Shown here piece by piece: positions 797 through 44,175 of a stretch of 64,000 nucleotides of DNA. Below the pieces are notes generated by a model. That model was not told where the DNA came from and searched no databases. It was given only the letters and a program-made list of their open reading frames with translations. The DNA is from Heterohyrax brucei (lineage: Eukaryota; Chordata; Mammalia; Hyracoidea; Procaviidae). The stretch lies in the NCBI GenBank assembly GCA_028571685.1, contig CM053143.1:67001-131000 (forward strand). Direction: 5' to 3'. The translations under genes were made by a program, and so were the position numbers. Position 1 is the first letter of the stretch. Each line of letters starts with the position of its first letter.

Positions 797-3345
797 TTTT
801 TTTTTCATTTATTTTTATTTTTGTTTTTAATAATTTTTCATTTAATATAACTGAGTGAAAATGTACATTCTCGTATACATTTACATACCCACCTGTATGC
901 AGCTTCCACTCTTCTCCCTGCCCGGTGACAGCACACTATTCCTCTCTGCTCCATACATGTCTCGTTCTCCCAACAGTCTCTTTTTAACCTCCTCTCCACC
1001 CACTCTCCTTCCTCCAGCCAGAGGTCAGCAGGATGACATCCTATAGATGAATAGAATCGTAAAGTGAATCCAATACATAGTCACTACATCGCCAAGACCA
1101 ATCTATTCCTGTTCGAAGCGTGGACCTTCGATATGATTTATCATCAAGGGCAGCATCAGGGTGAGGGGCCATGCTCCCAGGGGAAACTCGAAACCACTGG
1201 ACCATCAATTGAGGTCTTTTAGTGGGGATCTCAGGGTACACCCCTTTTTATTCTTGTGTTGCTGGTGAGACTCAACTTAGCAAGCTCCATTGCGGCTATC
1301 ACTGGTGGTGGCCGGGCACCATCTGGTTCTTCTGGTCCCAAGTCGACGTAGGCACCCACTCGTGTGGGTCTCTTTGTCTTCTGGGTTGTCTTTCCCCCAT
1401 GTCATTTTGGTCCTTGGTGAGCATCCATTCCTGCTGAGTTGGGACCATTTGCTGTACCCTCAGACGGCAGCTTGGCAGCTTTTAAGACCCCAGATGCCAC
1501 TCACCAACGTGGGGTGCAGAGAGCCCTCTTAGCAAAACGCTGGTTGTGCCAATTGACCTCACTTTCGCCTAAGAGCATGATCCCCTGCCCCCTGCCCCAG
1601 CAACTCTATCCTTGCAATATTGGGTTAAGATGGAAGGAGTACTCATGTTATGTTTAAGTCCACTTAATATTGTTCTTGTTTCTAATGTGTGCTATCACCG
1701 ATTTCACCCAACCACATACCTGACAACTATTTAATCTAAGCCCTCCCCCACTCCCTCCCCTCCCTTGCAGCTGTCAAAGAGTCTTTTCTTCTATACACAA
1801 GTCTGTTTTTGAGTTCTTATCGTAGAGGTCTCATACAATATTTGTTCTTTTGTCGCTGACTACTTTCATTCAACATGTCTTCCAGTTGAAACCAGGTTAG
1901 TAGATGTTTCCTGAAGTCATCATTGTTCTTTATCATTGCATAGTGCTCCATTGAGTATATGTACCATAGTTTAACTGTCCATTCTTCTGTTGTTAGGCTT
2001 CTGGGTTGATTCCATCTTTTTGCTATCGTGGACTGTATTGCGATAAACATTCTGGTGCATGTGTCTGTTGGTGTGAAAGGCCTTGATTCTCTAGGATATA
2101 TTCCAAGTAGTGGAATTACTGGGACAAATGGTATATCAGTATCCATTTTTTTAAGGAAGCGTCAGATTGCTTTCCAAAGAGGCCGGACCATTTTGCAACC
2201 CCACCAACAGTGTGGGAGGGTTCCACTTTCTCCTCAGCCTCTCCAGCATTTGTTGTTTTGTGTTTTTTGGATCATGGCCAACCTTGTTGGGGTGAGATGG
2301 TATCTCATTGTTGTCTTGATTTGAATTTCTTTCATAACTAAATATCGTGAACATGTCCGCATGTGTTTTTTGGCTGCCTGGATCTCTTTAGTGAAATGTC
2401 TGTCCATCTTCTTTGCCCATCGCTTAATTGGATGGCTTATCTTCTTTTTGTTGATATTTTGTAGTATCTTATAGATTATGGAAATCAGGCATCGGTCTCA
2501 CATAGAGTTTCCAAGTATTTTTTGTCATTCTGTAGGTGTTCTTTTAATTCTATTAATAAAGTTTTCAGATGAGCAAATGTGTTTAATTCTTAATAGATCC
2601 CATTTATCTATTTTCTCTTCTGATGATTGTGGTTTGTTTGACAGATTTTGGAGTCTGTCCATATTGTGTATTAAAACTTCCATTGTTGTTCCTAGCTTTT
2701 CGTGGATGAGCTTTATCTTTTTAGGTATGATATTTAGATCTTTTATCCAGCTGAATTTGGTTTTTGTATAAGGTGTAAGATATGGATCTTGTTTCACTTT
2801 CTTGGAGATGGATATCCAATTTTGCCAGCACCATTTGTGAAGATACTGTTTTTACCCCAGTTTCATGTCTTAGGGTCTTTGTCGAATATCAGTTGTTCAT
2901 ACGCAAATGGTGTCATCTGTGGGGTCTCAGTTCTGTTCCACTGATCAATCCGTCTGTTCTTAAACTAGTACTAGGCTGTTTTGACCACTGTGGCAGTGTA
3001 ATATGTTCTAAAGTCAGGTAATGAGAGGCCTCCCAGTGTGTTCTTCTTTAGTAGTACCTTGCTTAACCGGGGCTTCTTCCCTTTCCAAACAAAATTGGTG
3101 ATTTGTTTCTCCATCTCATTAAAAAATGTCACTGGAACTTGTATTGGGATTGCATTATATAAATAGACTGTTTTGGGTAAAATAGATGTTTTCACAATGT
3201 TAAGTCTTCCTATCCACGAGCAGGGTAGGTTTTTCCATTTATCTAAGTCTCTCTAGTTTCTTGTAGTAAGGGCTTGTAGTTCTCTTTGTAAAGGTCTGTT
3301 ACTTCTCTGGTTAGGTTAATTCCTAGGTACTTTATCTTCTTAGGG
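797..3345 (-). mobile_element. L1 3' half, minus strand (left palindrome arm)
   Basis: This is a 5'-truncated L1. On the minus strand it runs from ORF2 downstream of the RT A-D-D motif (3345) through the ORF2 C-terminus (about 3345-1800) and the 3'UTR (about 1790-850) to an A-rich tail seen as T-rich sequence at 797-850. Open pieces of ORF2 at 2971-3195, 2525-2797, 2151-2354 and 1817-2146 are separated by stops and frameshifts. It is nearly a mirror image of the L1 at about 3990-6640. It stops sharply at about 3345, where a plus-strand ORF2-derived repeat unit begins. The sense strand of the 3'UTR carries a G-rich run near 1740-1770. Confidence 0.9.
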
Positions 3346-4100
3346 GCTTTCTGTAAGGCACTCCAAGTACAAGTTCCGGCATCATTTTTGCCCTGTTAGC
3401 CGATGATAAATTTGTACATGCTGACAATCGTAAGCAATCTCTAAGTATACCCTCTACCTGATAGGAGAAATCAGCAAAATCTCAGGATACAAGAGAAACC
3501 TAAGTAACTCAGTAGGATTTACAGTAACGAGATTGTGAACAGAGAAATCATCACAACCATACTATTTACCATAGACCTCCAAAACGAAAATACCTAGGAA
3601 CTAATCTAACAAGAGAATCAACACAGTTTACACAGAGAACTGCCAGTTCTAGCTACAAGAAACTAAGAGAGGCTTAGAGAAATGGAACAATCTACGTTAT
3701 TCAAGGAGATAGAAAGACTGAACTTTATGAGAAGGTCTTTTTCCAAGAAAGCAATCGATTTCTGTAAGACAGACCCAGTACAATTTGCAGCTTCATTTTT
3801 GTGCTGTTAGCAGATGATACGAATGTACATGCTTCAAATCACAAGAAATCTCTAGGTAAATCCTCTAACTGATAGAAGAGATTAGCAAATTCTCAGGATA
3901 CAAGAGAAACCTCAATAAATCAGTAGGATTAATGGTAACAAGATTGTGAATGGAGGAATCATCAGATGTACACCATTTACCATAGACACCAAAAAGAGAA
4001 AGTATCTAGGAACTAATGTAACCAGAGAAGCAACAGACTTTTGTAGAGAGATCTACCGGTCATAATACAAGAAACTAAGAGAGACTTAGATAAATGGAAA
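3346..4100 (+). repeat. L1-ORF2-derived tandem units, isolated plus-strand copy
   Basis: This holds the tail of one unit (3346-3390), one complete unit (about 3391-3801) and a second unit that passes without a break into ordinary L1 ORF2. The A-D-D segment ('ctgttagc.gatgat') recurs at 3394 and 3805, a period of 411 bp. Unit-to-unit joins read from 'gtacaagttcc' straight back to 'ctgttagc.gatgat', which is not a normal L1 order: it is a tandem join of an ORF2 segment. The same join recurs throughout the array at 14785-25507. The phrase 'aatttgcagcttcattttt' here is matched in reverse complement near 17155. Confidence 0.85.
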
Positions 4101-4922
4101 AATCTACACTGTTCATGGAGATAGCAAGATTTCACATTGTGAAAAAGTCTATTTTACCCAAAGCAATCTATCTATATAATGCAATCCCAGTACAAGTTCC
4201 AGTGACATTTTTTAATGAGATGGAGAAACAAATCACCAATTTTCTTTGGAAAGGGAAGCAGCAACCATTAAGCAAGGTACTACTACAGAAGAAGAACACA
4301 CTGGGAGGCCTCTCATTACCTGACTTTAGAACATATTACACTGCCACAGTGGTGAAAACAGCCTGCTACTGGTATAAGAACAGACATATCGATCAATGGA
4401 ACAGAACTGAGACCCCACAGATGACACCATTTGTGTATGAACAACTGATATTCGACAAAGGCCCTAAGACATTAAATTGGGGTAAAAACAGTATCTTCAA
4501 CAAATGCTGCTGGCAAAATTGGGTATCCATCTCCAAGAAACTGAAACAAGATCCATATCTTACACCTTATACAAAAACCAACTCCAACTGGATAAAAGAC
4601 CTAGATAGCAAACCTAAAACGAGAAAGCTCATCCAGGAAAAGGTAGGAATAACAATGGAAGTTTTAATACACAATGTGGACAGACTCCAAAATCTGTCAA
4701 ACCACAATGATCAGAAGAGAAAATAGATCAATGGAAACTATTAAGAATCTAACACTTTTGCTCATCCAAAGACTATATTAATAGAATTAAAAGAACACTT
4801 GCAGAATGGGAAAAATTATTTGACAACTCTATGTCAGACCGACACCTGATCTCCATAATCTATAAGATACTATAAAATATCAATAGGAAGAAGATAAATC
4901 ATCCAAGTAAGCGATGGGCAAA

Positions 4923-5208
4923 GGAGATGGACAGACATTTCACTAAAGAGCAGATCCAGGCAGCCGAAAAACACATGTGGACATGTTCACGATATTTAGT
5001 TATGAAAGAAATTCAAATCAAGTTTACAGTGAGATACCATCTCACCCCAACAAGGTTGGCCATGAGGAGATGGACAGACATTTCACTAAAGAGCAGATCC
5101 AGGCAGCCGAAAAACACATGTGGACATGTTCACGATATTTAGTTATGAAAGAAATTCAAATCAAGTTTACAGTGAGATACCATCTCACCCCAACAAGGTT
5201 GGCCATGA
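4923..5208 (+). repeat. Perfect 143-bp tandem duplication in L1 ORF2
   Basis: Positions 4923-5065 and 5066-5208 read the same base for base, each starting 'ggagatggacagacattt' and ending 'ggttggccatga'. 143 is not a multiple of three, so the duplication shifts the ORF2 frame. Absence of visible differences inside an otherwise decayed L1 implies a recent event, or gene conversion. Confidence 0.95.
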
Positions 5209-5717
5209 TCCAAAAAACACAAAACAACAAGTGCTGGAGAGGCTGTGGAGAAAGTGGAACTCTCCTACACTGTTGGTGGGGTTACAAAATGGTCCAGCCT
5301 CTTTGGAAAGCAATCTGGCACTTCTTTAAAAAAATGGATATTGACATACCATTTGACCCAGTTATTCCACTACTTGGAACATATCTTACAGAATCAAGGC
5401 TTTTCACATCAATGGTCACAGGTACAAGAAAGTTTATCTCAGCACAGTCGACAATAGCAAAAAGATGGACTCAACCCAGATGCCCAACAACAGAACAATG
5501 GGTAGGTAAACTATGGTACATATACTAAATGGAGCACTATCCAAGGATAAAGAATAACGATGACTACAGGAAACATCTCCTAACCTGGTTTGAACTGGAA
5601 GATATTATGTTGAGTGAAAGTAGTCAGTGACAAAGGGACAAACACTGTATGAGACTTCTACGATAAGATCTCAAAAACAGACTTGTGTATAGAAGAAAAG
5701 ACTCTTTGACAGCTGCG

Positions 5718-8579: not shown

Positions 8580-9618
8580 AAAATGAGGGACAAATACTGT
8601 ATGAGAGCTCTACGATAAGATCTCAAAAACAGACTTGTGTATAGAAGAAAAGACTCTTTGACAGCTGCAGGAGAGAGGAGGGAGGGAGGGTGAGGGGGAC
8701 AGGCTTTAGTTTAGATAGTTGCTAGAAATCTGATTGGGAGAAAGCGGTGATAGCACACATTAGAAACGAGAAAAACATTAAGTGGACTTCAGCATAACTT
8801 GAGTACTCCTTCCATCTTAACCCAATATTGGAAGGATAGAGTAGCTGGGTCAGGGCGCGGGGGACCATGGTCTTAGGCGAAATCGAGGCCAATTGGCACA
8901 ACTAGCATTTTTCTAAGAGAGCTCTCTGCACCCCACATTGGTGAGTGGCGTCTGGGGCCTCAAAAGCTGCCAAGCTGCCATCTGAGGACACAGCAAATGA
9001 TCCCAACTCAGCAGGAACGCATGCTCACCAAGGACCAAAATGACATGCGGTAAAGACAACCTAGAAGACAGAGAGACTCGCAAGAGGGGGTCCCTTCATC
9101 GACTTGGGACGGGAAGAACCGGATGGTGCCTGGCCACCACCAGTGATAGCCACGATGGAGCTCACTACCTTGAGTTTCACTGGCAACACAAGAATAAAAA
9201 GGGGTGCATCCTGAGATGTCCACTAAAAGAGCACCATTGATGGTCCAGTGGTTTCGGGGTTTCCCTGAGAGCATGACGCCCAGCCCTGATGCAGCCCTTA
9301 CCCATAAAGTATAACAAAGGTCCACTCTTTGGACAGGAATGGATTGGACTTGGCAATGCAGAGTGACCATATATAGGTTGCACTTTGTGGTTCTACACAT
9401 CTATAGGATATCATCCTGCTGACCTCTGGCTGGAGGAAGGAGAGTGGGTGGAGAGGAGGGGAAAGAAGACTGTTTGGAAGATGAGACATGTATGGAGCAG
9501 AGAGTAAGAGTGTGCTGTCACCAGATAGGGAGAGCAGTGGAAGCTGCATATAGGCGGGCATGTAAATTTATACGGGAATGTACATTTTCACTCAGTCATG
9601 TTAAATAAAAAAAAAAAA
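8580..9618 (+). mobile_element. L1 3' end (ORF2 tail and 3'UTR)
   Basis: It starts at the extreme ORF2 C-terminus ('gggacaaatactgtatgaga'), which is the same position as 5634 in the right palindrome arm. It carries the G-rich tract at 8672-8700 and the whole 3'UTR, and ends in 'ttaaataaaaaaaa'. It is severely 5'-truncated, the common outcome of L1 insertion. Confidence 0.92.
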
Positions 9619-9660
9619 AATTTCCAAATAACCCAAACCCCACTAAACACAGAAATAGTA

Positions 9661-10664
9661 ATGGTGGAGACGGTGTCAAGCTGGCAGAGTAAGCACACAT
9701 CTCCTTATATCCCTCTGGAAACCAAGACCTGAACTGATAATCAAATGGAGCCTTCTGGTCACCTAATCAGCCCCAGGACACAACACAGGGCTGTTAATTG
9801 GGACTTCATGCCACTGAGAGAAAAACCTCCTCTCTTACGCTGACTCCCGTGCTTGGCTATCCTTGGCTCTCACGGACTGAAGGGAAACGCACCATTTTGA
9901 CTTTTTTTTTTCCTCTGTCTTGGCCGGCAGGCAGAGCAGGGTCTTGCCTAGTCGCTAGACTAAGACACGCTGCTGGGGGGACAGGCAGACCAAATTCCCA
10001 TATTTTGAGAGCCAGGCTTGGGACTCTGTTAATCTAGCCACTTTGAGCCTGTCGTTTTATATCTGCCTCAGCGGCGTTGTCACAGAATTTCGCAGTCAGT
10101 ATGCAGGACGCCATGTTGGATAAGGAGATTCTAGCAGGACCTCATTCTTAGCCTGGGAGCGAGCACCTCCAATCAGGACTGCGCTTCTCCAACAGAAAAG
10201 CAGTAATTTACCCAGTGCACCTGCTTTGGGGGTCCTGCAACAGAATCAGAGGAATCACTACCTCTCGGCACTTTTAGCCTTCTGTCTGCTGCCTGTGTGA
10301 AGGGTGCCATCTTGGATACGGTGGCCACAGCTGGACCAAATACTTTGCTTGGGAGCCAGAGCCTGCCCACAGGAGAGCGCTTTTCTATCAGAAAAGCACT
10401 ACTCTTCGCAATGTCGTCTAAGGCTAGGCCCTGTCAGCAGAGGCCAACAGGGCAGTAGCATTGCTGTATTCTGAACTAGTTTGTATCATCTGGGGTTGGA
10501 TATAGAGGCACTTACTTTGCCAGTTGAGAAGAGCGACCTCTACACCTGAAAACCTAACTGACTGGTGAAGTGGTCAGATATCTTTGGCTTTACATTTTAA
10601 GACAACCTAGAGAATCATCTGCAGTCAATCCTCACAGTACCTCTTCCAGTCTCTACATACTCCC
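9661..10664 (+). promoter_or_regulatory. L1 5'UTR
   Basis: It begins with the typical L1 5' start 'atggtggagacggtgtcaag' and resembles the 5' starts at about 26216 ('gagcagagccaagatgg') and 47262 ('gaggtgggaccaagatggtg'). In L1 biology this segment holds the internal RNA polymerase II promoter. Whether this copy is active cannot be judged by eye. It contains repeated motifs of the 'ctccaacagaaaagca' type (10186, 10386), shared with the other two 5'UTRs. Confidence 0.8.
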
Positions 10665-11621
10665 ATGGGTCCCAAAAAGCAACAGACACTTGTGGCACAC
10701 AACAAATCAGCCATGGGTTTGGAAGGCTCCCAAACAAAGCAACCAAGGAGTTTTCCAGATGAAGAAACTTTTATGAAAGCATCACAAAGTGAATACAAAG
10801 TGATGATATACAGAGCCCTTCTAGACCTTATACAAAATGCAGGAGAACAAAACCAAAAATTAAATAAGACGTTCAATCTGATGGAACACCAGTACTCTGG
10901 AATCCAACAGATCAAGAACGAAATCAAAGACACAGAAACTTCAATACAAAGCGGAGAAAACAGAATGGAACAAACAGAAAAAAGAATGTCTGACTTGGAA
11001 GACAGAGCTACTGAGGGCAGTGCCTATGAGGAGAAATCAGAAAAAAGAAAAAAGAAAAAGGAAGAAACATTAAGAAGCATGTGGGACTGTATTAAGAGGA
11101 ACAACCTTTGATTAATTGGAGTCTCTGAACAGGGTGAGTCATCTGAGAACACAGAGAGTATCGTTGCTGAGCTGCTGACAGAAAACTTCCCAGAAATCCT
11201 GAAGGAAGAGAATACAGACATCTCAGATGCATATCGTACACCACCCAATATAGATCTCAAAAGAAGGACGCCAAGACATATTATAATCAAGCTGGACAAA
11301 ATAAAACCTAAGCAGCAACTCTGAAAGGCAGCAAGACTGCAAGCAAAGCTGACATTCAGAGGGAAACTCTGCAGGCTGTCTTCAGATTTCTCAGCAGAAA
11401 CGATGCTGGCACGGAGACAGTGGCATGACACATGCAAAGCCTTGAAGGAGAAGAACTTCCAACCAAGAATCCTATATCCTGCAAAACTATCTTTCAAATA
11501 CGAAAATGAAATGAAGACATTCCTACATCAACAGAAACTCAGAGACTTTGTGAAAACCAAACCCAAACTACAAGAAATATTGAAAGAAGTTCTTGGCTCT
11601 GGCTTAGAAGAACAAAACCAC
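10665..11621 (+). pseudogene. L1 ORF1 (RNA-binding protein) remnant
   Basis: ORF1p is the nucleic-acid-binding trimeric coiled-coil protein of the L1 ribonucleoprotein. The start 'MGPKKQQT' at 10665 opens a 148-codon frame with a heptad-rich segment (about residues 55-115), ended by a TGA at 11109. The frame resumes beyond it with RRM/C-terminal features ('RRTPRHIIIKLDK', 'LTFRGK', 'KPKLQEILKEVL'). A further in-frame TGA near 11322 and the LTR insertion near the very end confirm it is dead. Confidence 0.9.
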
Positions 11622-12078
11622 TGTCCTAGTCACCGAGTACTGCTCTAATGGAAAATACCACGAGTGGAAGGTTTCATGAGGAGAACCTCTCATTGACATG
11701 ATCTGGTAAGCTGCAAATCCATTTGTACGTTGTAAGTCCATTCAGAATGACAAATCATCCCAGTCCGGTAGGCTGAGTCCAAATCCAATGAGAGCACCTT
11801 GGCACAGGAACCTCAGGTCAAAAGGACGTGCTCTGCTCTCGGTGCTTCTCTCTCAATGGTATGAGGTTCCCAACTTCCTCTGCTCACTTCTCTCCCTTAT
11901 ATTCCACAAACTTGTAGCTTGGGTCCTGCCTCACTAACACAACTGCAAACCATTCGTCATCACCAGTATCACAGAGGCAGGATTCACAACACATGGGAGA
12001 AAGGGCACCATGTTGGAACGCCAAACCAATTCCAATCAACACATACACTTTGGGGGGGACACAATTCAATCCATGACA
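11622..12078 (-). mobile_element. MaLR/ERVL-type solo LTR in L1
   Basis: The element is bounded by TG and CA ('tgtcctagtcacc' to 'caatccatgaca') and flanked by the perfect 5-bp duplication ACCAC (11617-11621 and 12079-12083). A 5-bp TSD is usual for ERVL/MaLR. On the minus strand it begins 'TGTCATGGATTGAATTGTGT', followed by a C-rich run, as in MLT1/MST-like LTRs. Its insertion splits the L1 between the end of ORF1 and the inter-ORF region. Related LTRs lie at 36011, 40085, 54353 and around 56468-57975. Confidence 0.85.
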
Positions 12079-12500
12079 ACCACTAACTTTATATTTTAAA
12101 ACAACGTTACTACTCAAAACTCTACTCGGTTAGGGAAGGCTCCAAAGCCAATCACAGCTTTGATAAGGAAACAAGCAATCCAGTGATCATCATGAAAACT
12201 GTGGTGTCATGATATTAAAAAGAGCGATGTATTACAGTTGTTATAGTCCTTCCAGATGGAGAGGAAGATGACAAGACCGGTAGTAATTAAAACTGGGTAT
12301 ATATATAATTTCTTAAGGGGGATCATAGAGGCAGCTGTAAAGCCCAACAAAGATCATTTCAAGAAATGTAACACAGGAGTCTCAACAACCACAAAACCAG
12401 CTGTTAAAAAGGTGAAAAATCAACTCACACAAAAGAACATCCCAGAACAGACGAATAAGAACAACAGAGAAAACATCAACATAAAAATAAACACATCACA

Positions 12501-14784
12501 AGGGCAGCACTGAACACATACCTGTCAATAATTACATTGAATGTGAATGGACTGAATGCTCCAGTAAAGAGACATTGAGTTGAGTGACATCTTGGATCAA
12601 AAGACATGACCCATCCATATGTTGTCTACAAGAAACTCACTTGAGACCTAAAGACAGGAACAAACTGAAAATTAAAGGTTGGAAGGAGATACATCAAGCT
12701 AACAGTGAACAAAGAAGAGCACGGGTGGTAAGTCTAATCTCAGACAAAATCAATTTTCATGTCAAATCCACCATCATGGACAAAGATGGACACTATTTAT
12801 TGCTGAAAGGTTCAGTACACAAGCAAGACCTAACTATATTAAATATTTCTGCACCTAATATCAGAGCACCTAAATACGTCAAAGAAACACTGACTACACT
12901 CATGAGAGAGTTAGACGACTCCACCATAATAGTGGGAGACTTCAACACTCCACACTCAATACTAGACAGATCATCTAGAAAAAAACTCAGTAAAGATACA
13001 GAAGACCTCATTGCCACAATTAACCAACTAAACCTCACTGATATATACAGAACTTTCCACCCATCAGCAGACAACTACCCCTTCTTCTCCAGTGCACATG
13101 GAACATTCTCCAGAATTGACCATGTGATAGTCCATAATGCAATGCTCCACAAAATCCATACCACTGAATTACTGCAAAGCATCTTCTCAGATCATAAAGC
13201 CATCCAAGTTGAAATCAATAGCAGAAAAAACATAGACAGAAAGTGGAACTCTTGGAAATGGAACAACATCTTGCTCAAAACAACACGGCTTATACAGGAA
13301 ATCAAGGATGAATTAAAGAAATTCATGGATTCAACCGAGAACAAAAACACTTCCTATCAGAACCTATGGGATACAGCCAAAGCAGTGCTCAGAGGTCTGT
13401 TTATCTCCATAAATGCACACATCTGGAAGGAAGAAAGAAACCAAATCAAGGAACTAACCCTACAGCTTGAACAAGTAGAAAGAGAACAACAGGGAAACCC
13501 TTCAAGCACCAGAAGAAATGAGATTAGAAAGAATAGAGCAGAGCTAAATGAGTTAGAGAACTGAAAAACAACCAAAAACATTGAAAAGACCAAAAGCAGG
13601 TTTTTGGAGAAGATCAACAAAATTGACAAACCACTGGCTGAACTTACTACTAAAGAAAAGTAGGAAAGGAAACAAAGAACCCAAATTAGAAATGAGATGG
13701 GGGTTGTCACCACAGATGCAACAGAAATCAAAACTATCATAACACAATACTATGAAAGACTGTACTCTAACCAATTTGAAAACCTAGGGGAAATGGGCCA
13801 ACTCGTTGACTCGTACCACGTACCCAAATAATCACAACGTGAAGCAGAACAACTTCATAAATCCATTACAAAGGAAGAGACTAAAAAGGTCATCAAAACA
13901 CTGCCCACCCAAAAAAGTCCGGGTCCAGATGGCTTCACTGCAGAATTTTACCAAGCATTTAGAGAAGAGTTATCTCCAGTATTACTGAAACTACTTCACG
14001 GGATAGAAAGGGATGGAGTACTCCCAAACTCGTTCCAGGAAGCCAGCATAACCCTGATACTTAAGCCAGGGAAAGACCCAACAAAGAAAGAGAACTACAG
14101 ACCGATATCACTGATGAATCTAGATGCCAAAATCTTCAAAAAAAACTCTCGCCAATAGAATACAACAACATATTAAGAAAATAATCCATCATGACCAAGT
14201 GGGCTTCATACCAGGGATGCAAGGCTGGTTCAACATCAGAAAAACAAGTAATGTGATTAAACCACATAAATAACACAAAAGACAAGGATCACCTGATTTT
14301 GTCCATTGATGCAGAAAAGACATTGGATAAAGTCCAACACCCATTCATGGTAAAAAACTCTTAACAAAATGGGCATAGACGGCAAATTCCTCAACACAAT
14401 AAGGGCCATTTCTACAAAGCCCACGTCATCCTGAATGGAGAGAGACTGACTTTCCCTTGAGAGTAGGAACTAGACAAGGATGCTCACTCTGACCTCTTCC
14501 ATTCAACATTGTGCTAGAAGTTTTAGCCAGAGCAATTAGACAAGGCCAAGAAATAAAGGCCTCTGCATTGGCAAACAGGAAGTTAAAATCTCCCTGTTGG
14601 CAGATGATATGATTGTATATGCAGAGAATCCCAAGGAATCTGTAAGTAAACTACTCAAACTGATAGATCAGTTCAGCAGAGTCTCAGGATACAAGATAAA
14701 CATAAGTAAATCAGTAGGATTCCTTTATACCAACAATGAGACTGTTAACGAAGAAATTATCAAATCAATACCTTTTACGATAGT
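12501..14784 (+). pseudogene. L1 ORF2 (endonuclease-reverse transcriptase) remnant
   Basis: ORF2p nicks target DNA and reverse-transcribes L1 RNA. By comparison with the copies at 27839 and 50049, the start codon should lie at 12501-12503, where this copy has AGG. A frame break follows near 12580. The 12584-13564 frame (326 codons) keeps the endonuclease motifs: 'CLQETHL' (catalytic Glu), 'VGDFNTP' (Asp/Asn), 'SRIDHV' and 'FSDHK' (Asp/His). RT motifs follow in broken frames: '[11 protein letters not shown]' about 13918 and '[11 protein letters not shown]' about 14045. The palm motif '[15 protein letters not shown]' lies in the 14597-14893 frame. Stops at 13562 and 13661 and frameshifts near 14145 and 14270 inactivate it. 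Confidence 0.92.
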
Positions 14785-17700
14785 AGATGGCTTTCTTGGA
14801 AACAGACCTTTTCACAAAGTTAAGTCTTCCTATCTCCATGAACAACGTAAATTTTTCCATTTATCTAAGTGTCTCTTAGATTCTTCTAGTTAGGGCTAAG
14901 AGTTCTCTGTGTAAAACTCTGTAGTTTCTGTGGTTAGATTAATTCCTAGGTACTTTCTCTTGTGAGTATCTGTTGTAAATGGTTTGGAACTGATAATTTC
15001 TACAGTCACTGCCTTGTCGTTAGTGTCAAGGAATCTTACTGATTTACTTAGGTTTCTCTTGTATCCTGTGATGTGGCTGATCTCTCCTATCAGTTAGAAG
15101 CCTCACTTATAGATTGGGATTCTCAGCATGTACAGTCTTTTCATATGTTAACAGGGCAAAAATGATGCTAGAACTTGTACTCGGAGTACCTTAGAGAAGT
15201 GGATTGCTTTCGGTGAAAGAGACCTTTGCACCATGTTAAGTCTTCCTATCTCCATGAACAGCGTAGATTTTTCCATTTATCTAAGTCTCTCTTAGTTTCT
15301 TGTCGTTAGGGCTTGAAGTTCTCTGTGTAAAACTCTGTAGTTTCTGGGGTTCGATGAATTCCTAGGTACTGTCTCTAGTTCATATCTCTGGTAAATCGTA
15401 TGGAGTGGATGATTTCTCCAATCATTGTCTCGTTAGTATCAAGGAATGCTGCTGATTTACTTAGTTTTCTCAAGTATCCTGAGAATTGGTTGATCTCTCA
15501 TATCAGTTCGAGGGTTTACTTAGAGATTCCTTGTGATTCTAAGCATTTACAATCGTATCAGCTGCTAACAGTGCAAAAATGAAGCTGGAGCTTGTACTAG
15601 GACTGTGTTATAGAAGTGGATTGCTTTCGGGGAAAGAGACCTTTTCACAATGTTAAGGCTTCCTATCTCCGGGAACAGCGTAGATTTTTCCATTTATCTA
15701 AGTCTCTCTTAGATTGTTGTAGTTAGTACTTAGAGCTCTCACTGTAAAACTCCATAGTTTCTGGGGTTGGATTCATTCCTCGGTACATTCTCCTATTAAT
15801 ATCTGTGGTAAATCTTGTGGAACTGATGATTTCTCTGTTCATTTTCTCATTGTTGGTGACAAGGAATCCTATTCATTTACTTAGGTTTTCTTGTAGATTC
15901 CTTGGAATTCTCGCCATGTACAATCGCTTCATCGTCTAACAGGGCAGGAACTTGTACTCGGAGTGCCTTATAGAAGTCGATGGTTTTCTTAGAAAGAGAC
16001 CTTTTCACAAAGTTAAGTCTTCCTATCGCCATCAATAACGTAGATTTTCCATTTATCTAAGTGTCTCTTAGTTTCTTCTAGTCAGGGCTTGGATTTCTCT
16101 GTGTAAAATTCTGTCGTTTGTGGGAAGAGATTAATTCCTAGGTCCTTTCTGTTCTTAATATCTGTGGTAAATCGTACGGAACTGATGATTTCTCCAATCA
16201 CTGTCTGGTTGTTATTGTCAAGGAATCCTACTGATTTACTTAGGTTTCTCATGTATCCTGAGAATTGGCTGATCTCTCTTATCAGCTAGAGGGTATACTT
16301 AGAGATTCCTTGTGATTCTAAGCATTTACAATCGTATCATCTGCTAACAGGGCCCAAATGATGCTAGATCTTGTACTCGGAGTGTCTTAGAGAAGTGGAT
16401 TGCTATTGGGGAAAGAGACCTTTTCCCAGTGTTAAGTCTTCCTATCTCCATGAACAACATAGATTTTTCCATTTATCTAAGTGTCTCCTAGTTTCTTCTA
16501 GTTAGGGCTTGGAGTTCTCTGTGTAAAACTCTGTACTTTCTCTGTATAGATTAATTCCTAGGTCCTTTCTGTTCTTAATATCAGTGCTAAATCGTATGGA
16601 ACTGTCTATTTCTCCAATCTCTGTCTTGTTGTGAGTGTCTCTTCATCCTGAGAATTGGCTGATGTCTCGTATCAGTTAGAGGCTTTACTTAGAGATTCCT
16701 TGGGAACCTAAGCACTTACTATCGCATCATCTGGTAGCAGCACAAAAACAAACCTGGAACTTGTACTGGGACTGTCTTATAGAAGTGGATTGCTTTCGGG
16801 GAAAGAGACCTTTTTACAATGTGAAATCTTCCTATCTCCATGAACATCATAGATTTTTCCATTTATCTAAGTCTCTCTTAGTTTCTTGTAGTTCAGACCA
16901 GTAGATCTCTCTGTAACAGTCTGTTGTTTCTCTGGTTACATTAGTTCCTAGGTACTTTCTCTTTGGGGGGTCCACGGTAAATTGTGTGGATCTGATGATT
17001 CCTCTGTTCACAATCTTGTTACCGTTATTGCTACTGATTTATTTAGTTTTCTCCTGTATCCTGAGAGTTTGCTGATCTCTTCTATCAGTTAGGGGGGTTA
17101 CTGAGAGATTCCTTGCAATTCGAAGCATGTACATTCGTATCATCTCCTAACAGTGCAAAAATGAAGCTGCAAATTGTACTGGGACTGTCTTACAGAAATC
17201 GATTGTTTTTGGGGAAAGAGACCTTTTCAAAAAATTAAGTCTTCCTATCTCCAGGATCAGCTAAGATTTTTCCATTTCTCTAAGTCTCTCTTAGTTTCTT
17301 GTAGCTCATACTGGTAGTTCTTTGTGTAAACTGTATTGCTTCGCTGGTTAGTTGAGTTCCTAGGTACTTTCGTTTATGGGGTCTGTGCTAAATAATATGG
17401 ATGTGATTTCTCTGTTCACAATCTTGTTACTGTAAATCCTACTGATTTACTTAGGTTTCTATTGTATCCTGAAATTTGCTGATCTCTCCTATCAGGTAGA
17501 GTTTTTGACTTAGAGATTTCTTATGATTCTTAGCATGTACAAATTCATCATCGACTAATAGGGAAAAAAATGACGCTGGAACTTGTACTCAGAGTGCCTT
17601 ATAGAAGTGGACTGCATTCGGGGAAAGAGTCCTTTTCCTAGTGTTAAGTCTTCCTAGCTCCACAAACGTAGATTTTTCCATTTTTCTAAGTGTCTCTTAG

Positions 17701-18320
17701 TTTCTTCTAGTTAGGGCTTGGGGTTCTCCATGTGAAAGTCTGTAGTTTCTGTGTATAGATTATTTCCTAGGTCCTTTCTGTTCTTAATATCGGTTTTGAA
17801 TCGTATGGAACTGACGTTTTCTCCAATCACTGTGTCATTGTTATTGTCAAGGAATCCTACTGATTTACTTAGATTTCTCGTGTGTCCTGAGAATTTGCTG
17901 ATCTCTCCTATCAATTAGAGGGTTTACTTAGAGATTCCTTCGGATTCTCGGCATGTGTCATCTTCTAACAGCGCAAAAATGATGCTGCAACGTGTACTTG
18001 GGACTGCCTTACAGAAGTCGATTGCTTTTGGGGAAAGAGACCTTTTGGCAATGTTAAGTCTTCCTATCTTCACGAACAACGTAGATTTTTCCATTTATCT
18101 AAGTGTCTCTTAGTTTCTTCTAGTTACGGCTTAGAGTTCTCTGTGTGAAACTCTGTAGTTTCTGTGTATAGATTAATTCCTAGGTCCTTTCTATTCTTAA
18201 TATCTGTGGTAGATCGTATGGAACTGTCGATGTCTCCAACCACTATCTTGTTATTAGTGTCTCTTGCATCCTGAGAACTGGCTGATGTCTCCTATCAGTT
18301 AGATGCTTTACTTAGAGATT
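14785..18320 (-). repeat. Array block A, most L1-like units
   Basis: Nine units have spacings of about 361-424 bp. Diagnostic phrases on the plus strand are 'gattgctttcggggaaagag', 'gttaagtcttcctatctcc' and 'gatttttccatttatctaag', with 'ctgctaacagggcaaaaatg' at the unit start. These are the phrases closest to intact L1 ORF2. Internal deletions shorten the units starting near 15627 and 16405. The block ends abruptly at about 18320: a type A unit broken at 'cttagagattc' joins a type B unit at 'tgtagtttctctcgttac', giving a 558-bp spacing. Confidence 0.85.
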
Positions 18321-21109
18321 CTGTAGTTTCTCTCGTTACTATCTGTTCTAAATCGTATGGAGCTGATGACTTCTGCATTAGCTGTCTTGTTTCTTTCAAG
18401 GAATCCCACTGATTTACTGAAGTTTCTCTAGTATCCTGTGATTTTGGTATACTCTCGTATCAGTTAGAGTGTTTACTTATACATTCCTTGCGATTCTTGA
18501 GGTGTACAATCGTATCATCTGCTGAAAAGGAAGTCCTGATGCTGCAACGTGTACTGGGACTGACTTATAGAAGTAGGTTCCTTTCAGGGAAAGAGATTTT
18601 TTCACAATTCTAAGTACTCCTATCTCCATGAACAGCATAGATTTTGCCAGTTATCGAAGTGTCTCTTAGTTTCTTGTAGTTTGGGCTGGGAATTCTCACT
18701 GTAAAACTCCATAACGTATCGGGCTAGATGAATCACTGTGTAGTTTCTCTTGTTACTATCTGTTCTAAATCGTATGGAACTGAAGACTTCTGCATTCACT
18801 GTCTTGTTGTTTCTTTCAAGGAATCCCACTGATTTACTGAAGTTTCTCTAGTATCCTCTGATTTTGGTACAATCCCGTGTCAGTTAGAGTGTTTACTTAT
18901 ACATTCCTTGCAATTCTGGACATGTACAATCGTATCATCTGCTAAGAAGAAAAGACTGATGCTGGAACATGTACTGGGACTGACTTATAGAAGTAGGTTC
19001 CTTTCAGAGAAAGAGATCTTTTCCCAATGCTAAGTACTCCAATTTCCATGAACAGCATAGATTTTGTGAGGTATCTAAGTCTCTCTTACTTTCTTGTAGT
19101 TAGGGCTGGGAGTTCTCTCTGTAAAACTCTGTAACGTCCCTGGCTAGATGAATCACTATGTAGTTTCTCTTGTTACTATCTGTTCTAAATCGTATGGAAA
19201 TGATGATTTCTTCATTCACCGTCTTGTTTTTTCTGTCAAGGAATCCCATTGATTTACTGAAGTTTCTCTCGTATTCTGTGACTTTGCTGTACTTCCCTGT
19301 CAATTAGAGGGCTTACTTATACATTCGTTGAGATTCTGAGCATGTACAGTCATATCATCTGCTCAAAAGGAAACAATGATGCCGCAACTTGTACTGGGAG
19401 TGCCTTATAGAAGTAGTTTCCTTTCTGGGAAAGAGATCTTTTCACAATGCCAAGTACTCCTATCTCCATGAACAGCGTAGATTTTGCCATGTATCTAAGT
19501 CTCTGTTAGATTATTGTGGTTAGGACTGGTAGTTCTCTCGGGAAAACTCTGTTGTTTCTTGAGTTAGTTGAATTCCGAGGTATTTTCTCTTTTTAGGATC
19601 TATGGTAAATGCTGTGAATCTGACGATTTCTCCATGCACAATCTCAGTACTGACAAGGTACTTTCTCTTTTTAGCATCTATGGTAAATGCTATGGATCTA
19701 ATGGTTTCTCTGTTCACATTCTCGGCACTGTCAAGGAATCCTACTGACTTCATTTGGTTTCTTTTGTGTCCTAAGAATTTCCTAATCTCTCCTATCTGTT
19801 AGAGGATTTACTTATACATTCCTTGCAATTCTCGGCATGTACAATTGTATCATCTACAAAAAGGAAAGATGGACGCTGGAACATGTACTGGGACTCACTT
19901 ATAAAAGTAGTTTCCTTTCTGGGAAAGCGAGCTTTTCACAATGCTGAGTACTCCTATCTCAATGAACAGCATAGATTTCGGCAGTTACCTAAGTTTCTCT
20001 TAGTTTCTTGTAGTTAGGGCTGGGAGTTCTCTCTGTAAAACTCTGTAGCTTCTCTGGCTAGATGAATCACTGTGTAGTTTCTCTTGTTACTATCTGTTCT
20101 AAATCGTATGAAACTGATGATTTCTCCATTCAGTGTCTCGTTCTCTCTGTCAAGAAATCCCATTGATCTACTGAAGATTCTCTAGCATACTGTGAGTTTG
20201 CTGTACTCCCCTATCAGTTCAAGGGTGTACTTATACATTTCTTGTGTTTCTCGGCAAATACTGTGGTACCATCTGCTAAAAAGGAAAGAATGTTGCTGGA
20301 ACTTGTACTGGGACTGAGTTATCGAAGTAGGTTCCTTCCTGGGAAAGAGATCTTTTCACAATGCTAAGTACTCCAATTTCCATTAACAGCATATTTTTTG
20401 CTAGTTATCTAAGTCTCTCTTACCTTCTTGCAGTTAGGGCTGGGATTTCTCTCTGTAAAAATCTGTAACGTCTCTGGCTAGATGAATCACTGTGTAGTTT
20501 CTCTTGTTACTTTCTGTTTTAAATTGTATGGAACTGATGACTTCTGCATTCACTGTCTTGTCGTTTCTTTCAAGGAATCCCACTGATTTACTGAAGTTTC
20601 TCTAGTATCCTGTGATTTTGGTATACTCCCGTATCAGTTAGGGTGTTTACTTACACATTCCTTGTGATTCTCGACATTTACAATCATATCATCTGCTAGA
20701 AAGGAAAGACTGATGCTCGAACGTGTACTAGGACTGACTTATAAAGTGGGTTCCTTCCTGGGAAAGAGAGCTGCTCACAATGCTGAGTACTCGTATCTCA
20801 ATGAACAGCATAGATTTCGGCAGTTACCTAAGTCTCGCTTATTTTCTTGTAGTTACGGCTGGGAGTTCTCTGTGTAAATCTATGTAGCGTCCCTCGGTAG
20901 ATGAATCACTGTGTACTTTCTCTTGTTACTATCTGTTCGAAATCATATGGAACTCATAATTTCTCTGTTCAGTGTCTTGTTTCTGTCAAGGAATCCCACT
21001 GATTTACTGAAGTTGCTCTTTTATCCTGTGAATTTGGTATACTCCCCTATCAGTTAGAGGGTGTATTTATATATTCCTTCGATTCTCAGCATGTACCATC
21101 GTATTCTCT
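18321..21109 (-). repeat. Array block B units
   Basis: Units of about 418-422 bp share changes absent from block A: 'gtaggttcctttc', 'gctaagtactcctatctcc', 'gattttgccagttatc', 'gatgaatcactgtgtagttt' and 'ctgctaaaaaggaaag'. One unit (19579-19734) holds an extra internal 78-bp tandem duplication. Confidence 0.8.
19579..19734 (-). repeat. 78-bp internal duplication inside one array unit
   Basis: Positions 19579-19656 and 19657-19734 align over 78 bp with about 12-15 differences by eye. Each contains 'tctctttttag.atctatgg' and 'aaatgct.tg.atct'. It explains the 492-bp A-D-D spacing of this unit. 78 is a multiple of three, and the minus-strand ORF 19520-19753 shows the peptide twice ('FTID.KKRKYL'). 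Confidence 0.85.
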
Positions 21110-22930
21110 GCTAAAGAGATAAGAAGGATACTGGAACTTGTACTGGGAGTGTCTTATAGATGTAGATTTCTTTCTGGGAAAGATATGTTTTCACAATGCT
21201 AAGTACTCCCAACTCCATGAACAACGTAGATTTTGCCAGTTATCTAAGTCTCTCTTATTTTCTTGTAGTTATGGCTTGGATTTCTCTGTGTAAATCTCTG
21301 TAACTTCTGTGGATAGATTAATCACCGGATAGTTTCTCTTGTTACTGTCTGCTCTAAATCATATGGAACTCATCATTTTTCCTTCACTGTCTCGTTGTTT
21401 CTGTCAAAGAATCCTGCTGATTTACTGAAGTTTCTTTTGTATCCTGTGAATTTGGTATTTTCCCCCCTATCAGTTAGAAGGTTTATTTATATATTCCTTG
21501 TGATTCTCGGCATGTACCGTCATATCATCTGCTAAAAAGATAAGAATGATGCTGGAACTTGTACTGTGAGTGTCTTATAGAAGTCGATTTCTAGCTAGGA
21601 AAGAGATGTTTTCACAATGCTTAGTACTCCTATCTCGATGAATAGCATAGATTTTGCCAGTTATCTAAGTCTCTCTTAGTTTCTTGTAGTTAGGGTTGGA
21701 AGTTCTCTCTATAAAGCTTTGTAACTTTTCTGGGTAGATGAATCACTATGTACTTTATCTTGTTAATCTCTGTGGTAAATCATATGGAAATGATGATTTC
21801 TTTGTTCACGGTCTTGTTCCTGTCAAGGAATTCCATTGACTTACTGAAGTTTCTCTTGTATCCTGTGAATTTGGAACACTCTAATTGATAATTTAGAGAG
21901 TTTATTTACATATTCCTTGCGATTCTCAGCATGTACCAGTGTATCACCTGGGCGTGTCTTATAGAAGTCGATTTCTTTCTGGAAAAGTGATGTTTTCAGA
22001 ATGCTAACTACTCCCTTCTCCATTGACAGCGAAGATTTTGACAGTTTCTTGTAGTTAGGCCTGGGAGTTCTCTGTGTATATCTCTGTAACTTCTCTAGCT
22101 AGATGAATCACTATGTACTTTCTCTTGTTACTATATGTTCTAAATCGGATGGAACTGATGATTTCTCAGTTCACTGCCTCTGTATTTCTGTCGAGGAATC
22201 CTACTGATTCAATGAAGTTTCTCTTGTATCCTGTGAGTTTGATATATTCCCCTATCAGTTAGAGGGTTTATTTATATATTCCTTGTGATTCTCGGAATGT
22301 ACCGTCGTATCATCTGCTAAAAAGATAAGAATGATGCTGGAACTTGTACTGCGAGTGTCTCAAAGAAGTTGATTTCTTTCTGGGAAAGAGATGTTTTCAC
22401 AATGCTTAGTACTCCAATCTCCATGAAAGGCGTAGATTTTGCCAGTTGTCTAAGTTTCTCTTAGTTTCTTGTAGTTAGACCTGGGAGTTCTTTCTATTAA
22501 ACTCTGTAACTTCCCTGGATAGATGAATCACTATGTACTTTATCTTGTTAATCTCTGTTGTAAATCGTATGGAAATGATGGTTTCTTCGTATGATTTATT
22601 TATATATTCCTTGCGATTCTCCGTATGTACCATCGTATCATCTGCTAAAAAGATAAGAAAGATGCTGGAACTTGTATTGGGCGTGTCTTATACAAGTAGA
22701 TTTCTTTCTGGGAAAGAGATGTTTTCAGAATGCTAAGTACTCCCATCTCTATGAACAACGTACATTTTACCAGTTTTCTATGTCTCCCTTATTTTCTTGT
22801 AGTTACGGCTGGGAGTTCTTTGTTTAAATCTCTGTAACTGCTCTTAGCAGATGAGTCACTATGTAGTTGCTCTTGTTACAATCTGTTCTAAATCATATGA
22901 AACTCATACTTTGTCTGTTCACTGTCTCAT
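21110..22930 (-). repeat. Array block C units
   Basis: Units carry 'gtagatttctttctgggaaa', 'gctaagtactcccaactcc', 'ctgctaaaaagataagaatg' and 'gtttatttatatattccttg'. Two are shortened: at about 21948 the segment after 'gtatcacctg' is lost, and near 22590 'ttcttcgta' joins 'tgatttatttata'. Confidence 0.8.
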
Positions 22931-25507
22931 TGTCTTATAGAAGTAGATTTCTTTCTGGGAAAGAGATGTTTTCACAATGCTAAGTACTCCCAACTCCATG
23001 AACAACGTAGATTTTCCCAGTTATCTAAGTCTCTCTTATTTTCTGGTAGTTATACCTGGGAATTCTCTGTGTAAACCTCTGTAACTTCTCTGGGTAAATG
23101 AATCACTATGTGCTTTCTCTTGTTACTATCTATTCTAAATCGTATGAAAGTCATGCTTTCTCTGTTCACTGTCTCGTTGTTTCTGTATAGGAATCCTACT
23201 GATTTACTGAAGTTTCTCTTGTATCCTGTGAATTTCGTATACTCCTCTATCAGTTAGAGGCTATATTTATATATTCCTTGTGATTCTCGGTTTCTAACAA
23301 CGTATCCTCTACTAAAAAGAAAAGAATGATGCTGGAACTTGTACAGGGAGTGTCTTATAAAGGTACATTTCTTTCTGGGAAAGAGATGTTTTCACAATGC
23401 TAAGTACTCCCAACTCCAAGAACAACGTAGATTTTGCCAGTTATCTAAGTCTCTCTTATTTTCTGGAAGTTATAGGTGGGAGTTCTCTGTAAATCTCTGT
23501 AACTTCTCTGGGTAGATGAATCACTATGTACTTTCTCTTGTTACTATCTGTTATATAGCATATAAAACTCATGCTATCTGTGTTCACTGTCTCGTTGTCT
23601 TATAGAAGTAGATTTCTTTCTGGGAAAGACATGTTTTCTCAACGCTAAGTACTCCTAACTCCATGAACTACGTAGATTTTGCCAGTTATCTAAGTCTGTC
23701 TTATTTTCTTGTAGTTATAGCTGGGAGTTCTCTGTGTAAATCTCTCTAACTTCTCTGGGTAGATGAATGACTATGCACTTTCCCTTGTTACTATCTGTTC
23801 TAAAACGTATGAAACTCATACGTTTTCTGTTCACTGTCTCATTGTCTTATAGAAATAGATTTCTTTCTGGGAAAGAGATGTTTTCACAATGCTAAGAACT
23901 CCCAACTCCATGAACAACGTAGATTTTGTCAGTTATCTAAGTCTCTCTTATTTTCTTGTAGATACAGCTGGGAGTTCTCTGTGTAAATCTCTGTAAGTTC
24001 TCTGGGTAGATGAATCACTATGTAATTTCTCTTGTTACTATCTGTTCTAAATCGTATGAAACTCATACTTTGTGTGTTCACTGTCTCATTGTGTTATAGA
24101 AGTAGATTTGTTTCTGGGAAAGAGATGTTTTAACAATGCTAAGTACTCCCAACTCCATGAACAATGTAAATTTTGCCAGTTATCTAAGTCTCTCTTATTT
24201 TGTCATAGTTATAGCTGGAAATTCTCTGTGTAAATCTCTAGAACTTCTCTGGGTAGATGAATCACTATGTACTTTCTCTTGTTACTATGTGTTCTAAATC
24301 GTATGAAACTCATCCTTTCTATGTTCACTGTTTTGTTGTCTTATAGAAGTAGATTTCTTTCTGGGAAAGAGATTTTTTCACAACACTAAGTACTCCCAAC
24401 TCCATGAACAACATAGATTTTGCCAATTATCTATGTCTCTCTTATTTTCTGGTAGTTATACCTCGGAATTCTCTCTGTAAATCTCTGTAACTTCTCTGGG
24501 TAGATGAATTACTATGTACTTTCTCTTGTTACTATCTGTTCTAAAACATATGAAACTCATACATTTTCTGTTCACTGTCTTGTTGTCTTATAAAAATAGA
24601 TTTCTTTGTGGGTAAGAGATGTTTTCCCAATGCTAAGTACTCCCAACTCTGTGAACAACGTAGATTTTGCCAGTTTTTAAGTTTCTCTTATTTTCTGGTA
24701 GTTATAGCTGGGAGTTCTCTGTGTAAATCTCTGTAACTTCTCTGGGTAGATGAATCACTATGTACTTTCTCTTGTTACTATCTGTTCTAAATTATATGAC
24801 GCTCACACTTTCTGTGTTCACTGTCTCATTGTCTTATAGAAGTAGATTTCTTTCTGCGAAAGAGATGTTTTCACAATGCTAAGTACTCCCACCTCCATGA
24901 ACAACGTAGATTTTGTCAGTTATCTAAGTCTCTATTATTTTCTGTAGTTATAGCAGGGTGCTCTCTGTGTAAATCTCCGTAACTTCTCTGGGTCGATGAA
25001 TCACTATGTACTTTCTCTTGTTACTATCTGTTTCAAATCATATGAATCTCATGCTTTCTCTTTTCACTGTCTCATTTCTGTAAAGTATTCCTACTCATTT
25101 ACTGACTTTTCTCTTGTATCTGTGAATTTCGTATACTCCTCTATCAGTTAGAGGGTTTATTTATATTTTCCTTGCAATTTTGGGTTTGTACCCACGTATC
25201 CTCTACTAAAAAGATAAGAATGATGCTGGAACTTGTACTGGGAGTGCCTTATAGAAGTACATTTCCTTCTGGGAAAGAGATGTTTTCACAATGCTAAGTA
25301 CTCCCAACTCCATGAATAACGTAGATTTTGCCAGTTATCTAAGTCTCTCTTATTTTCTTGTACGTATAGCTGAGAGTTCTCTGTGTAAATCTTTGTAAGT
25401 TCTCTGTGTAGATGAATCACTATGTACTTTCTCTTGTTACTATCTGTTCAAATCATATGAAACTCATACTTTGTATGTTCAGTGTCTCGTTATCTTATAG
25501 ATGTAGA
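22931..25507 (-). repeat. Array block D, shortened about 247-bp units
   Basis: In most units here the segment between 'ctgttcactgtctc(g)ttg' and 'tcttatagaagtaga' is deleted, which removes the A-D-D half of the monomer. Anchors at 23365, 23612, 23858, 24104, 24352, 24600 and 24846 are 246-248 bp apart. Full-length units remain starting near 22945 and 24846 (spacings about 416-420). The array stops at about 25507 and the plus-strand old L1 resumes. Confidence 0.88.
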
Positions 25508-41884: not shown

Positions 41885-42379
41885 AGCAGGGTCCCGGGGT
41901 GGTGGAGTTCAGGCACTTTTGTAAAGTTCCGTTCCACCAAAAATAGGTATCCGGTGTTGGGCCAGCTCGGTTTTGTACGGTAATATTTCAGGTGCAGGAA
42001 GGGAGTGCTGTGGTTATGGTATTCTTGGTTATGAGGCAGATTCGGGGAGGTTGTGTCTAATTATTGATTTTAGGCTCCCAAAGGGGTACCTGTAGTGTGG
42101 GGGTAGCACAGCAGTGGGTGTCTGAGATGGTAGGGGCTGGGCAGATGTAGTTCGTTGGAACCGCCACCAGCAGGGGGCGCTGAAGTGAAGCACTGAGAAA
42201 ACGGTGATATTGGGTAGCGTCTGAGCATGATTAAAAATGATAAAGTGTGTTCGATGATCTGTGTCCAGGAGGACAGCTGTGCTGTGTGTGGTTTGTTTAA
42301 GATTCAGTTTTCTAGGACTTGTTCTGTTTGGGCAATATTTTTGGACACTTGTGTTGGAGTTAATTGTTTTCAGAGACAT
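41885..42379 (-). pseudogene. env surface-subunit remnant (partial)
   Basis: Minus-strand pieces between the pol remnant and the TM frame. The 42029-42379 frame and its neighbours hold short Cys-containing pieces consistent with the C-terminal part of a surface subunit, but frameshifts scatter them and the N-terminal part is deleted. Assignment is mainly by position. Confidence 0.55.
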
Positions 42380-44140: not shown

Positions 44141-44175
44141 GAATGAGTTTCCTGATCTGCTTCTGTGCGCTCCTC

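Follow-up and report, generated by a model that had tools for sequence, protein, structure and literature searches.

Alkan et al. (2011) are said to have described centromeric satellites, including an elephant satellite, and Vondrak et al. reportedly traced satellites to tandem repeats internal to retrotransposons. The latter share with the array reported here the tandem expansion of an internal retroelement segment and, as the relevant passage of PMC8421680 presents them, concern LTR-retrotransposons. The common cetacean satellite, likewise mammalian and L1-built, resembles the 3'-terminal part of L1 in the account of PMC9659126, a part that is the L1 3' end and not the reverse transcriptase. 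PROsat of Phodopus roborovskii is a mammalian satellite that has L1 ORF2 sequence in common with ours, but the likeness, as described in the same account, concerns a small region (88% similar to L1 ORF2; PMC9659126), whereas the present monomer is ORF2 over its whole length. The chicken HinfI satellite combines CR1 3' UTR with partial ORF2; it too carries LINE coding sequence in its monomer, from another LINE clade and another part of the element, and re-entry into the parent element is not mentioned in the passages that treat it (PMC9659126). Within Paenungulata, TMAsat of manatees is a tandem repeat that is L1-associated in elephants; it differs in its ~684-bp monomer, its centromeric position, the lack of RepBase similarity given in its description and primers that mismatch the present array (PMC8421680). 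The EMAM1 and LAFM1 monomers, printed as 2619 and 2629 kb and taken here as bp (about 2.6 kb), are set apart by their description as being without LINE sequence (PMC9952010), whereas the present monomer is LINE throughout. As these accounts have it, L1-derived satellites, some of them partly ORF2-like, are already known, and the family described here differs in having a monomer that is wholly ORF2. We found no described family with an ORF2 monomer in the open-access full-text literature, Dfam and Repbase being outside the scope of that search. The initial annotation had called such an array unusual and without a described match; the second point holds for the literature covered, while PROsat and HinfI, as described in PMC9659126, are ORF2-related precedents that count against the first.

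We analysed one stretch of 64,000 nucleotides (the window) and, with considerable confidence, regard its main array as part of a non-coding satellite family, most likely of single origin, with a history of founding, shortening, duplicon spread and, more tentatively, entry into L1. At positions 14783-25507, 29 segments follow one another head to tail, each of them L1 ORF2 on the minus strand by BLAST against L008, an intact L1 of the same genome whose numbering provides the reference positions used below. A satellite-like array of about 29 units with an L1 ORF2 monomer had been proposed at 14785..25507, and these borders were right within a few bases: L1 on the + strand stops at 14782, and the array starts at 14783 and stops at ~25507. 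BLAST gave 34 rows within the main array, all on the minus strand and 70-81% identical to L008, made up of 29 that cover, whole or in part, the core common to both unit types and 5 shorter fragments; a cruder, gap-free count of the core gave 27 units. Full units span reference positions 2027-2444. Tandem Repeats Finder returned overlapping arrays with periods of 413-420, one of 328 and then 247, as well as two short-period rows inside the main array; the unit sizes first read from the letters were 410-420, then ~247 bp. The window contains 12 occurrences of a junction pattern that detects 11 of the 21 marked unit boundaries of the main array; 100 shuffles contained none.

Type I units of 420 bp occupy 14783..18321 (minus strand), are 74-81% like L008 and have their junction near CTAACAGGGCAAAAATGATG on the + strand. 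They are followed by a derived subfamily (18322..22680, minus strand; clade support 0.875) of mostly 420-bp units and some shorter pieces, 70-76% like L008. The remainder (22684..25507, minus strand) consists of 247-bp units, closed at CTCGTTGTCTTATAG, and a few longer ones, as seen from L1 coverage and from tandem repeat finder rows at 22684-23180 and 23351-25076.

The ancestral monomer is a single ~418-bp piece of L1 ORF2, closed on itself by one common junction. It begins at the A-D-D box, which we take to be the palm motif of the reverse transcriptase, reaches the end of the Pfam RVT_1 domain and continues for ~60 more codons. The match to the RVT_1 profile covers 151-205 of 205. A monomer made from the catalytic core, as first suggested, is therefore right for the A-D-D box and later sequence and too broad for the core as a whole. 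The minus-strand reading and the start at the A-D-D box were likewise correct, but the unit ends ~12 bases past the 'gtacaagttcc' proposed as its limit, at CATTTTT/G/CCCTGTTAGCAGATGAT. Homology to L1 extends throughout the monomer (L008 2027-2444), with one base extra or changed at the junction and founding microhomology of at most 1 bp, and the full-length units examined have the same L1 stretch and the same junction. A first step, visible in the sequence, joined ~418 bp of L1 ORF2 end to start by one junction. That junction would then have founded a tandem array, which may have grown by unequal exchange or circle amplification. The 247-bp monomer, which covers L1 about 2223-2417 (BLAST against L008), equals the 420-bp unit minus 173 bp; as read from the sequence, a deletion at a shared TGT produced it, and the shorter monomer was then amplified separately.

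The satellite family is non-coding. Every one of the 78 units examined has at least two stops in each forward frame, and because stops occur in all three of these frames we rejected a coding repeat, an active L1 or a coding reverse transcriptase. The only stop-to-stop frame of at least 100 aa overlapping the array (14540-14893) lies mostly inside the flanking L1. Any role would be putative, in heterochromatin or chromosome-end structure.

The ORF2-derived array belongs to a genome-wide family of thousands of monomers. In this genome the 420-bp junction was matched 1,360 times and the 247-bp junction 2,948 times, with 0 in the reversed-pattern controls for either. The family has the properties of satellite DNA, namely head-to-tail defined monomers (420 and 247 bp) in many copies at several chromosomal sites, with homogenisation and higher-order structure at C24; L1 homology along the whole monomer marks it as L1-derived. 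The family is enriched close to the ends of contigs: of 23 exact-junction clusters, 10 fall within 500 kb of such an end and 13 do not, compared with 5 of 97 clusters within that distance in a set made from 100 of the 150 L1 reverse transcriptase matches listed. The first 3,000 bases of contig C4 read N. Arrays measure ~2 kb at locus L061, 10.7 kb in the window and about 53 kb at C24, the last length being estimated from tag spacing with 16.2 kb of the array read. C24, an interior site at 33.94-33.99 Mb, is a higher-order array, 99.36% identical over 9,983 bp at an offset of 5,273 bp; an internal tag occurs there in 12 copies, whose 11 intervals measure 5,273 in 4 cases and otherwise 3.5-5.5 kb. 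Other sampled arrays are heterogeneous, with a mean unit-unit identity of 77%. In a tree, all 80 units (from 10 contributing stretches of 11 given) group together and separately from 9 L1 sequences, with a support of only 0.56 for the split between units and L1. A search of a plasmid collection gave no match.

The satellite travels within a multi-chromosome duplicon. All 40 places scored for the left locus, window included, carry it at full length, and they lie on 7 contigs (40 scored of 9,445 candidates). The duplicon flank at 9300..12400 (+ strand) is full length in 14 places on 9 contigs, again including the window, at 90-100% (14 among 40 scored of 30,902 candidates). Arrays have spread between chromosomes inside this larger duplicon, in many cases close to the ends of contigs, and those at C24 have been re-amplified into higher-order repeats.

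The window is dense in L1. Its L1s next to the arrays had been annotated as intact, but 12529-14782 is a cut 5' part and 3804-4210 is the last unit of a short array. The 5' part (12529..14782, + strand) is cut at reference 2217 and joins the inverted main array at about unit position 2403. An L1 3' part (1815..3346, minus strand; reference 3753 to 2219) joins the short array at unit position 2403, and this junction is the reciprocal of that at 14782. The short array (3348..4210, + strand) comprises a unit end, one full unit and the last unit, in which satellite states give way to L1 states between 2346 and 2383 and which is continuous with an L1 3' half (4211..5668, + strand). Twin-priming as the origin of the 2219/2403 junction was rejected because the inverted piece extends beyond the start point of the forward piece.

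Nor are the adjoining L1s probably the source of the array, as the initial annotation had it; they stand closer to young L1 than the units do, and the switch points described below suggest recombination of the array into an L1. The flanking L1 is about 85-90% like young L1 (L008), whereas the units average 75.6%. Identity to the window is 94.0-95.9% for units and 92.7-95.6% for flanking L1 in 11 duplicon copies, which were compared out of 40 places and are not independent since several lie on one contig. Because the units are farther from young L1 and yet units and flanks diverge equally, the array would seem to predate the L1 that hosts it. The equal divergence also led us to reject a higher mutation rate of the satellite units as the whole explanation, although at C16 the array (89%) falls below its flank (94%); at C19 both stand at 93%.

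The locus at C6 (L061) comprises, in order, an L1 5' part, inverted units, an inverted unit remnant, forward units and an L1 3' half. The remnant has L1 states to 2346 and satellite states from 2378. In the last unit the order is the opposite: satellite states up to 2346 are followed by L1 states from 2378, with the exception of 2400, a site that is satellite-like in all four test sequences. A single 31-bp identity block contains both L1-to-satellite switches, which is what recombination of a satellite circle into an L1 would be expected to leave. The chance that two random switch points share one diagnostic interval is 9.5%, a figure that would rise if crossovers favour long identity blocks, and this reading draws on one ancestral event, later duplicated, and on 24 diagnostic sites, some of them unclean. 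In the L1 5' flanks, 3 of 9 diagnostic sites show the satellite state. Both switch regions also carry one common in-block base unlike both majority sequences, and hence later conversion between the two ends is possible. Gene conversion also occurs, since one unit (L060_8417) combines L1 and satellite states in a mosaic. At C6 the L1 parts reach no more than 85-86% likeness to L008, which leaves a narrower age gap than that of the window.

On balance, we lean towards homologous recombination at the common ORF2 segment as the way in which an older array came to lie in a younger L1, in the simplest form through a single crossover with a satellite circle. The locus would then have been split by an inversion between unit positions 2217 and 2403, and the two junctions of the window would be the products of that inversion, in rearranged order. 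A more general proposal, which we consider less likely than not, is that satellite circles recombine with L1 copies across the common ORF2 segment, homology to a transposon family dispersing the satellite through the genome. If true, a satellite born from a polymerase gene would retain enough identity to its parent for genomic L1 copies to be homologous landing sites. The birth of satellites from transposons and their movement between non-homologous chromosomes are commonly deduced from end products. In the present case a single genome seems to preserve several of the steps (founding junction, second-generation shorter monomer and recent higher-order array), together with a locus at which the switch points hint at recombination of the satellite back into its parent element. 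Because the steps are kept in one genome, circle integration is testable with long reads and sister species.

That the array arose within its present flanking L1, through tandem duplication of an ORF2 segment and a later internal inversion, is unlikely. Such an origin makes a second molecule unnecessary, and L061 retains L1 5' and 3' parts around in-register units; yet the difference in likeness to L008 between flanking L1 and units persists despite equal divergence in the 11 copies, and L1 and satellite states switch within the terminal units. Less probable still is spread largely by the L1 machinery, through 3' transduction read-through or as an array inside a mobile L1, and not by DNA recombination. 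At L083 and L085, the two interior loci whose 5' array edge lies in the stretch read for them (at L082 and L084 it lies outside), the array directly follows what seems to be the A-rich-tailed 3' end of an L1, both running in the same direction, the L1 end of L085 being judged from likeness to L083. The copies of the window, however, move as larger duplicons with non-array flanks.

It is very improbable that a known satellite of elephants or sirenians and the present monomer are one and the same under different names. Elephant TMAsat-like arrays are mostly L1-flanked, but the ~684-bp TMAsat consensus is without a RepBase match, both as described in PMC8421680. Moreover, two TMAsat primers need at least 5 and at least 6 mismatches in the window, and EMAM1/LAFM1 are reported as without LINE sequence by RepeatMasker in the description of PMC9952010; identity with either was rejected so far as the primers (TMAsat) and the descriptions allow. 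Finally, the junction common to the units refutes an accidental accumulation of L1 insertions, whether independent, nested or truncated, in a region rich in L1, since this one non-L1 junction recurs, with all 34 main-array rows in the same orientation and 1,360 junction matches genome-wide against 0 in the control.

The window corresponds to C4:67001-131000 in a genome of 3.49 Gb, which puts the main array (window 14783-25507) some 82-93 kb inside one end, the start, of this 197-Mb contig. Comparison with L008, an intact L1 from this genome, resolves it into 34 rows, all 34 on the minus strand: 29 segments with all or part of the core common to both unit types, and five shorter fragments. This bears out the initial annotation, which had described about 29 head-to-tail units of L1 reverse transcriptase. 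A full unit corresponds to L008 2027-2444, about 418 bp, and in protein terms begins at the A-D-D box and takes in RVT_1 profile positions 151-205 of 205 and about 60 further codons. The same junction closes unit on unit, its least changed form on the L1 strand being CATTTTT-G-CCCTGTT. L008 reads CATTTTTT and then AATGAG at the unit end, and ATCTCCCTGTT upstream of the A-D-D box. Microhomology at the founding junction is at most 1 base, indicating that the founding join was not made by homology.

Units are 74-81% like L008 between 14783 and about 18.3 kb, and 70-76% between 18.3 and about 22.7 kb, where they form a derived clade (support 0.875). From 22.7 kb on the period drops to 247 bp, in agreement with the shorter units noted earlier. 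Read from the sequence, the 247-bp unit is a 420-bp unit that has lost about 173 bp, the gap being closed at CTCGTTGTCTTATAG through a shared TGT; it predominates in the arrays of four interior stretches (C6, C9, C21 and C22). The units keep no coding role, since in 78 of 78 units at least two stops interrupt every forward frame. In a tree of units with at least 385 aligned bases, to which 10 of the 11 stretches given contributed, all 80 units were separated from the nine L1 sequences included, eight young ones and an old one from the window, although support for the split was only 0.56. The units are nearer to young L1 (75.6%) than to old L1 (65.6%).

At L061, a locus on C6, L1 runs forward from 979 to 2213 (L008 numbering); then come units in reverse orientation, a reversed unit remnant (2443 to 2219), a forward piece (2403-2444) and forward units, the last of which continues into forward L1 as far as 3581. 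This whole order is explained by an inversion with one breakpoint at 2217 in the first unit and the other at 2403 in a later unit. In the window, L1 2217 is joined to inverted 2403 at 14782, and inverted 2219 to forward 2403 at 3346; these are the same reciprocal pair as at L061, in rearranged order. Where L061 has the inverted remnant, the window has L1 sequence that continues to 3753 and carries the L1 state at 14 of 15 diagnostic sites, from which we infer a later recombination. Inversions within these arrays happened more than once, since the array L041 (C12:106466-106472) flips orientation at another point, 2228 joined to 2089. At L083 (C22) and L085 (C21), an interior array directly follows an apparent L1 3' end that has the orientation of the array, as either L1 insertion into an array edge or read-through mobilisation would produce.

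Compared with L008 in 60-base windows, the last unit, both at L061 and in the window, shows 71-83% identity as far as 2328 and, starting at 2329, 81-97%. At 24 sites diagnostic for satellite or L1, the C6 remnant carries L1 states as far as 2346 and satellite states beginning at 2383. The last unit on C6 shows the reverse, satellite states as far as 2346 and L1 states beginning at 2383, with the exception of site 2400, where each of the four sequences tested has the satellite state. With relaxed sites both switches are confined to 2347-2377, a 31-bp block over which the majority sequence of L1 does not differ from that of the satellite. Some sites are unclean, the L1 5' flanks having the satellite state at three of nine. 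A single crossover with a circular satellite molecule would place both switches at one point; under a uniform model, the chance that two separate exchanges share one diagnostic interval is 9.5%. Within the block, one base is common to both C6 ends and unlike either majority, so that a later conversion between these ends is possible. If satellite units simply mutated faster than L1, copies of the surrounding duplicon should differ more in their units than in their L1 flanks, and on C16 a longer array stretch is indeed less like the window (89%) than its flank (94%); array and flank are both at 93% on C19, however, and comparison of 11 copies among the 40 places gives identities to the window of 94.0-95.9% for units and 92.7-95.6% for flanking L1, which on balance disfavours this explanation. 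The balance favours recombination of an old array into a younger L1, a reading based on one ancestral event.

The arrays travel within a duplicon that is frequent at chromosome ends, because its flank and left locus are copied on many contigs and the C19 copy carries the start of the window array together with its L1 junction (93.2% over 3.2 kb). The left locus (window 3180-4100) is full length in all 40 places scored of 9,445 candidates, window included, on seven contigs; copies other than the window itself are 89-96% identical. For the flank at 9300-12400, 14 of the 40 places scored, out of 30,902 candidates, hold a full-length copy; they are spread over nine contigs and, the window itself apart, are 90-94% identical. 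A flank copy lies less than 500 kb from an end on seven of these contigs (C4, C9, C15, C16, C19, C20 and C25); on C2 and C6 the distance is about 2-6 Mb. A 143-bp tandem duplication at 4922-5208, within the L1 3' half, is perfect and therefore probably very recent; it is absent from six other copies of the locus examined. One nearly identical array edge (AATCCTATGGTGTGG...) is common to the loci L043, L045 and L047 (C16, C9 and C2), and differs from the right edge of the window array at 25507, where the array meets an apparently L1-like stretch.

The repeat is a family, not a local event. A 35-base pattern spanning the 420-bp junction, with at most three mismatches, matches 1,360 places genome-wide and its reversed control none; as it picks out 11 of 21 marked boundaries between units of the window array, the true number is perhaps twice that count. 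The 247-bp junction occurs at 2,948 places (control 0), by a pattern that finds 38 of the 116 sites present at up to eight mismatches in seven test stretches. Junction matches alone represent about 1.3 Mb. Among all 50 exact matches to one junction variant, 19 lie less than 500 kb from a contig end, as do 10 of their 23 clusters versus 5 of 97 clusters built from the first 100 of 150 L1 RT matches listed. Over-representation at contig ends does not mean that the family is confined there, the 13 other clusters being interior.

Higher-order repeats of both unit sizes are found at C24:33.937-33.990 Mb, where 16.2 kb were read. Shifted by 5,273 bp, this sequence matches itself at 99.36% identity along 9,983 bp, though likeness of its monomers to L008 is only 69-78%. 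A recurring insert of about 880 bp, with similar AGAAATCTACTT sequence on both sides, was found in 12 copies on C24; four of the 11 intervals between them measure 5,273 bp and the others 3.5-5.5 kb. Because it aligns to four separated pieces at C6:147.43 Mb, the insert (loci L080/L081 on C24) reads as an apparently intronless, PPP1R14B-like copy of an intron-bearing gene there. With this copy present 12 times within the satellite, higher-order amplification came after its insertion, and the pattern is that of a recently re-amplified satellite.

LINE-derived satellites are already known as a kind: a review describes a hamster PROsat partly similar to L1 ORF2, a chicken satellite with CR1 ORF2 and a cetacean satellite with the L1 3' end (PMC9659126). 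Known elephant and manatee satellites, judged by their published descriptions and primers, are unlike the present family in length and content. As far as the open-access literature searched reaches, the family itself, its two-step monomer history and the higher-order array are new, as is the suggestion that this satellite re-enters L1 by homology.

Elsewhere in the window, separate open frames on the minus strand at 41192-44643 resemble pieces of retroviral gag, protease, pol and transmembrane envelope, and on that resemblance presumably belong to a broken endogenous retrovirus.
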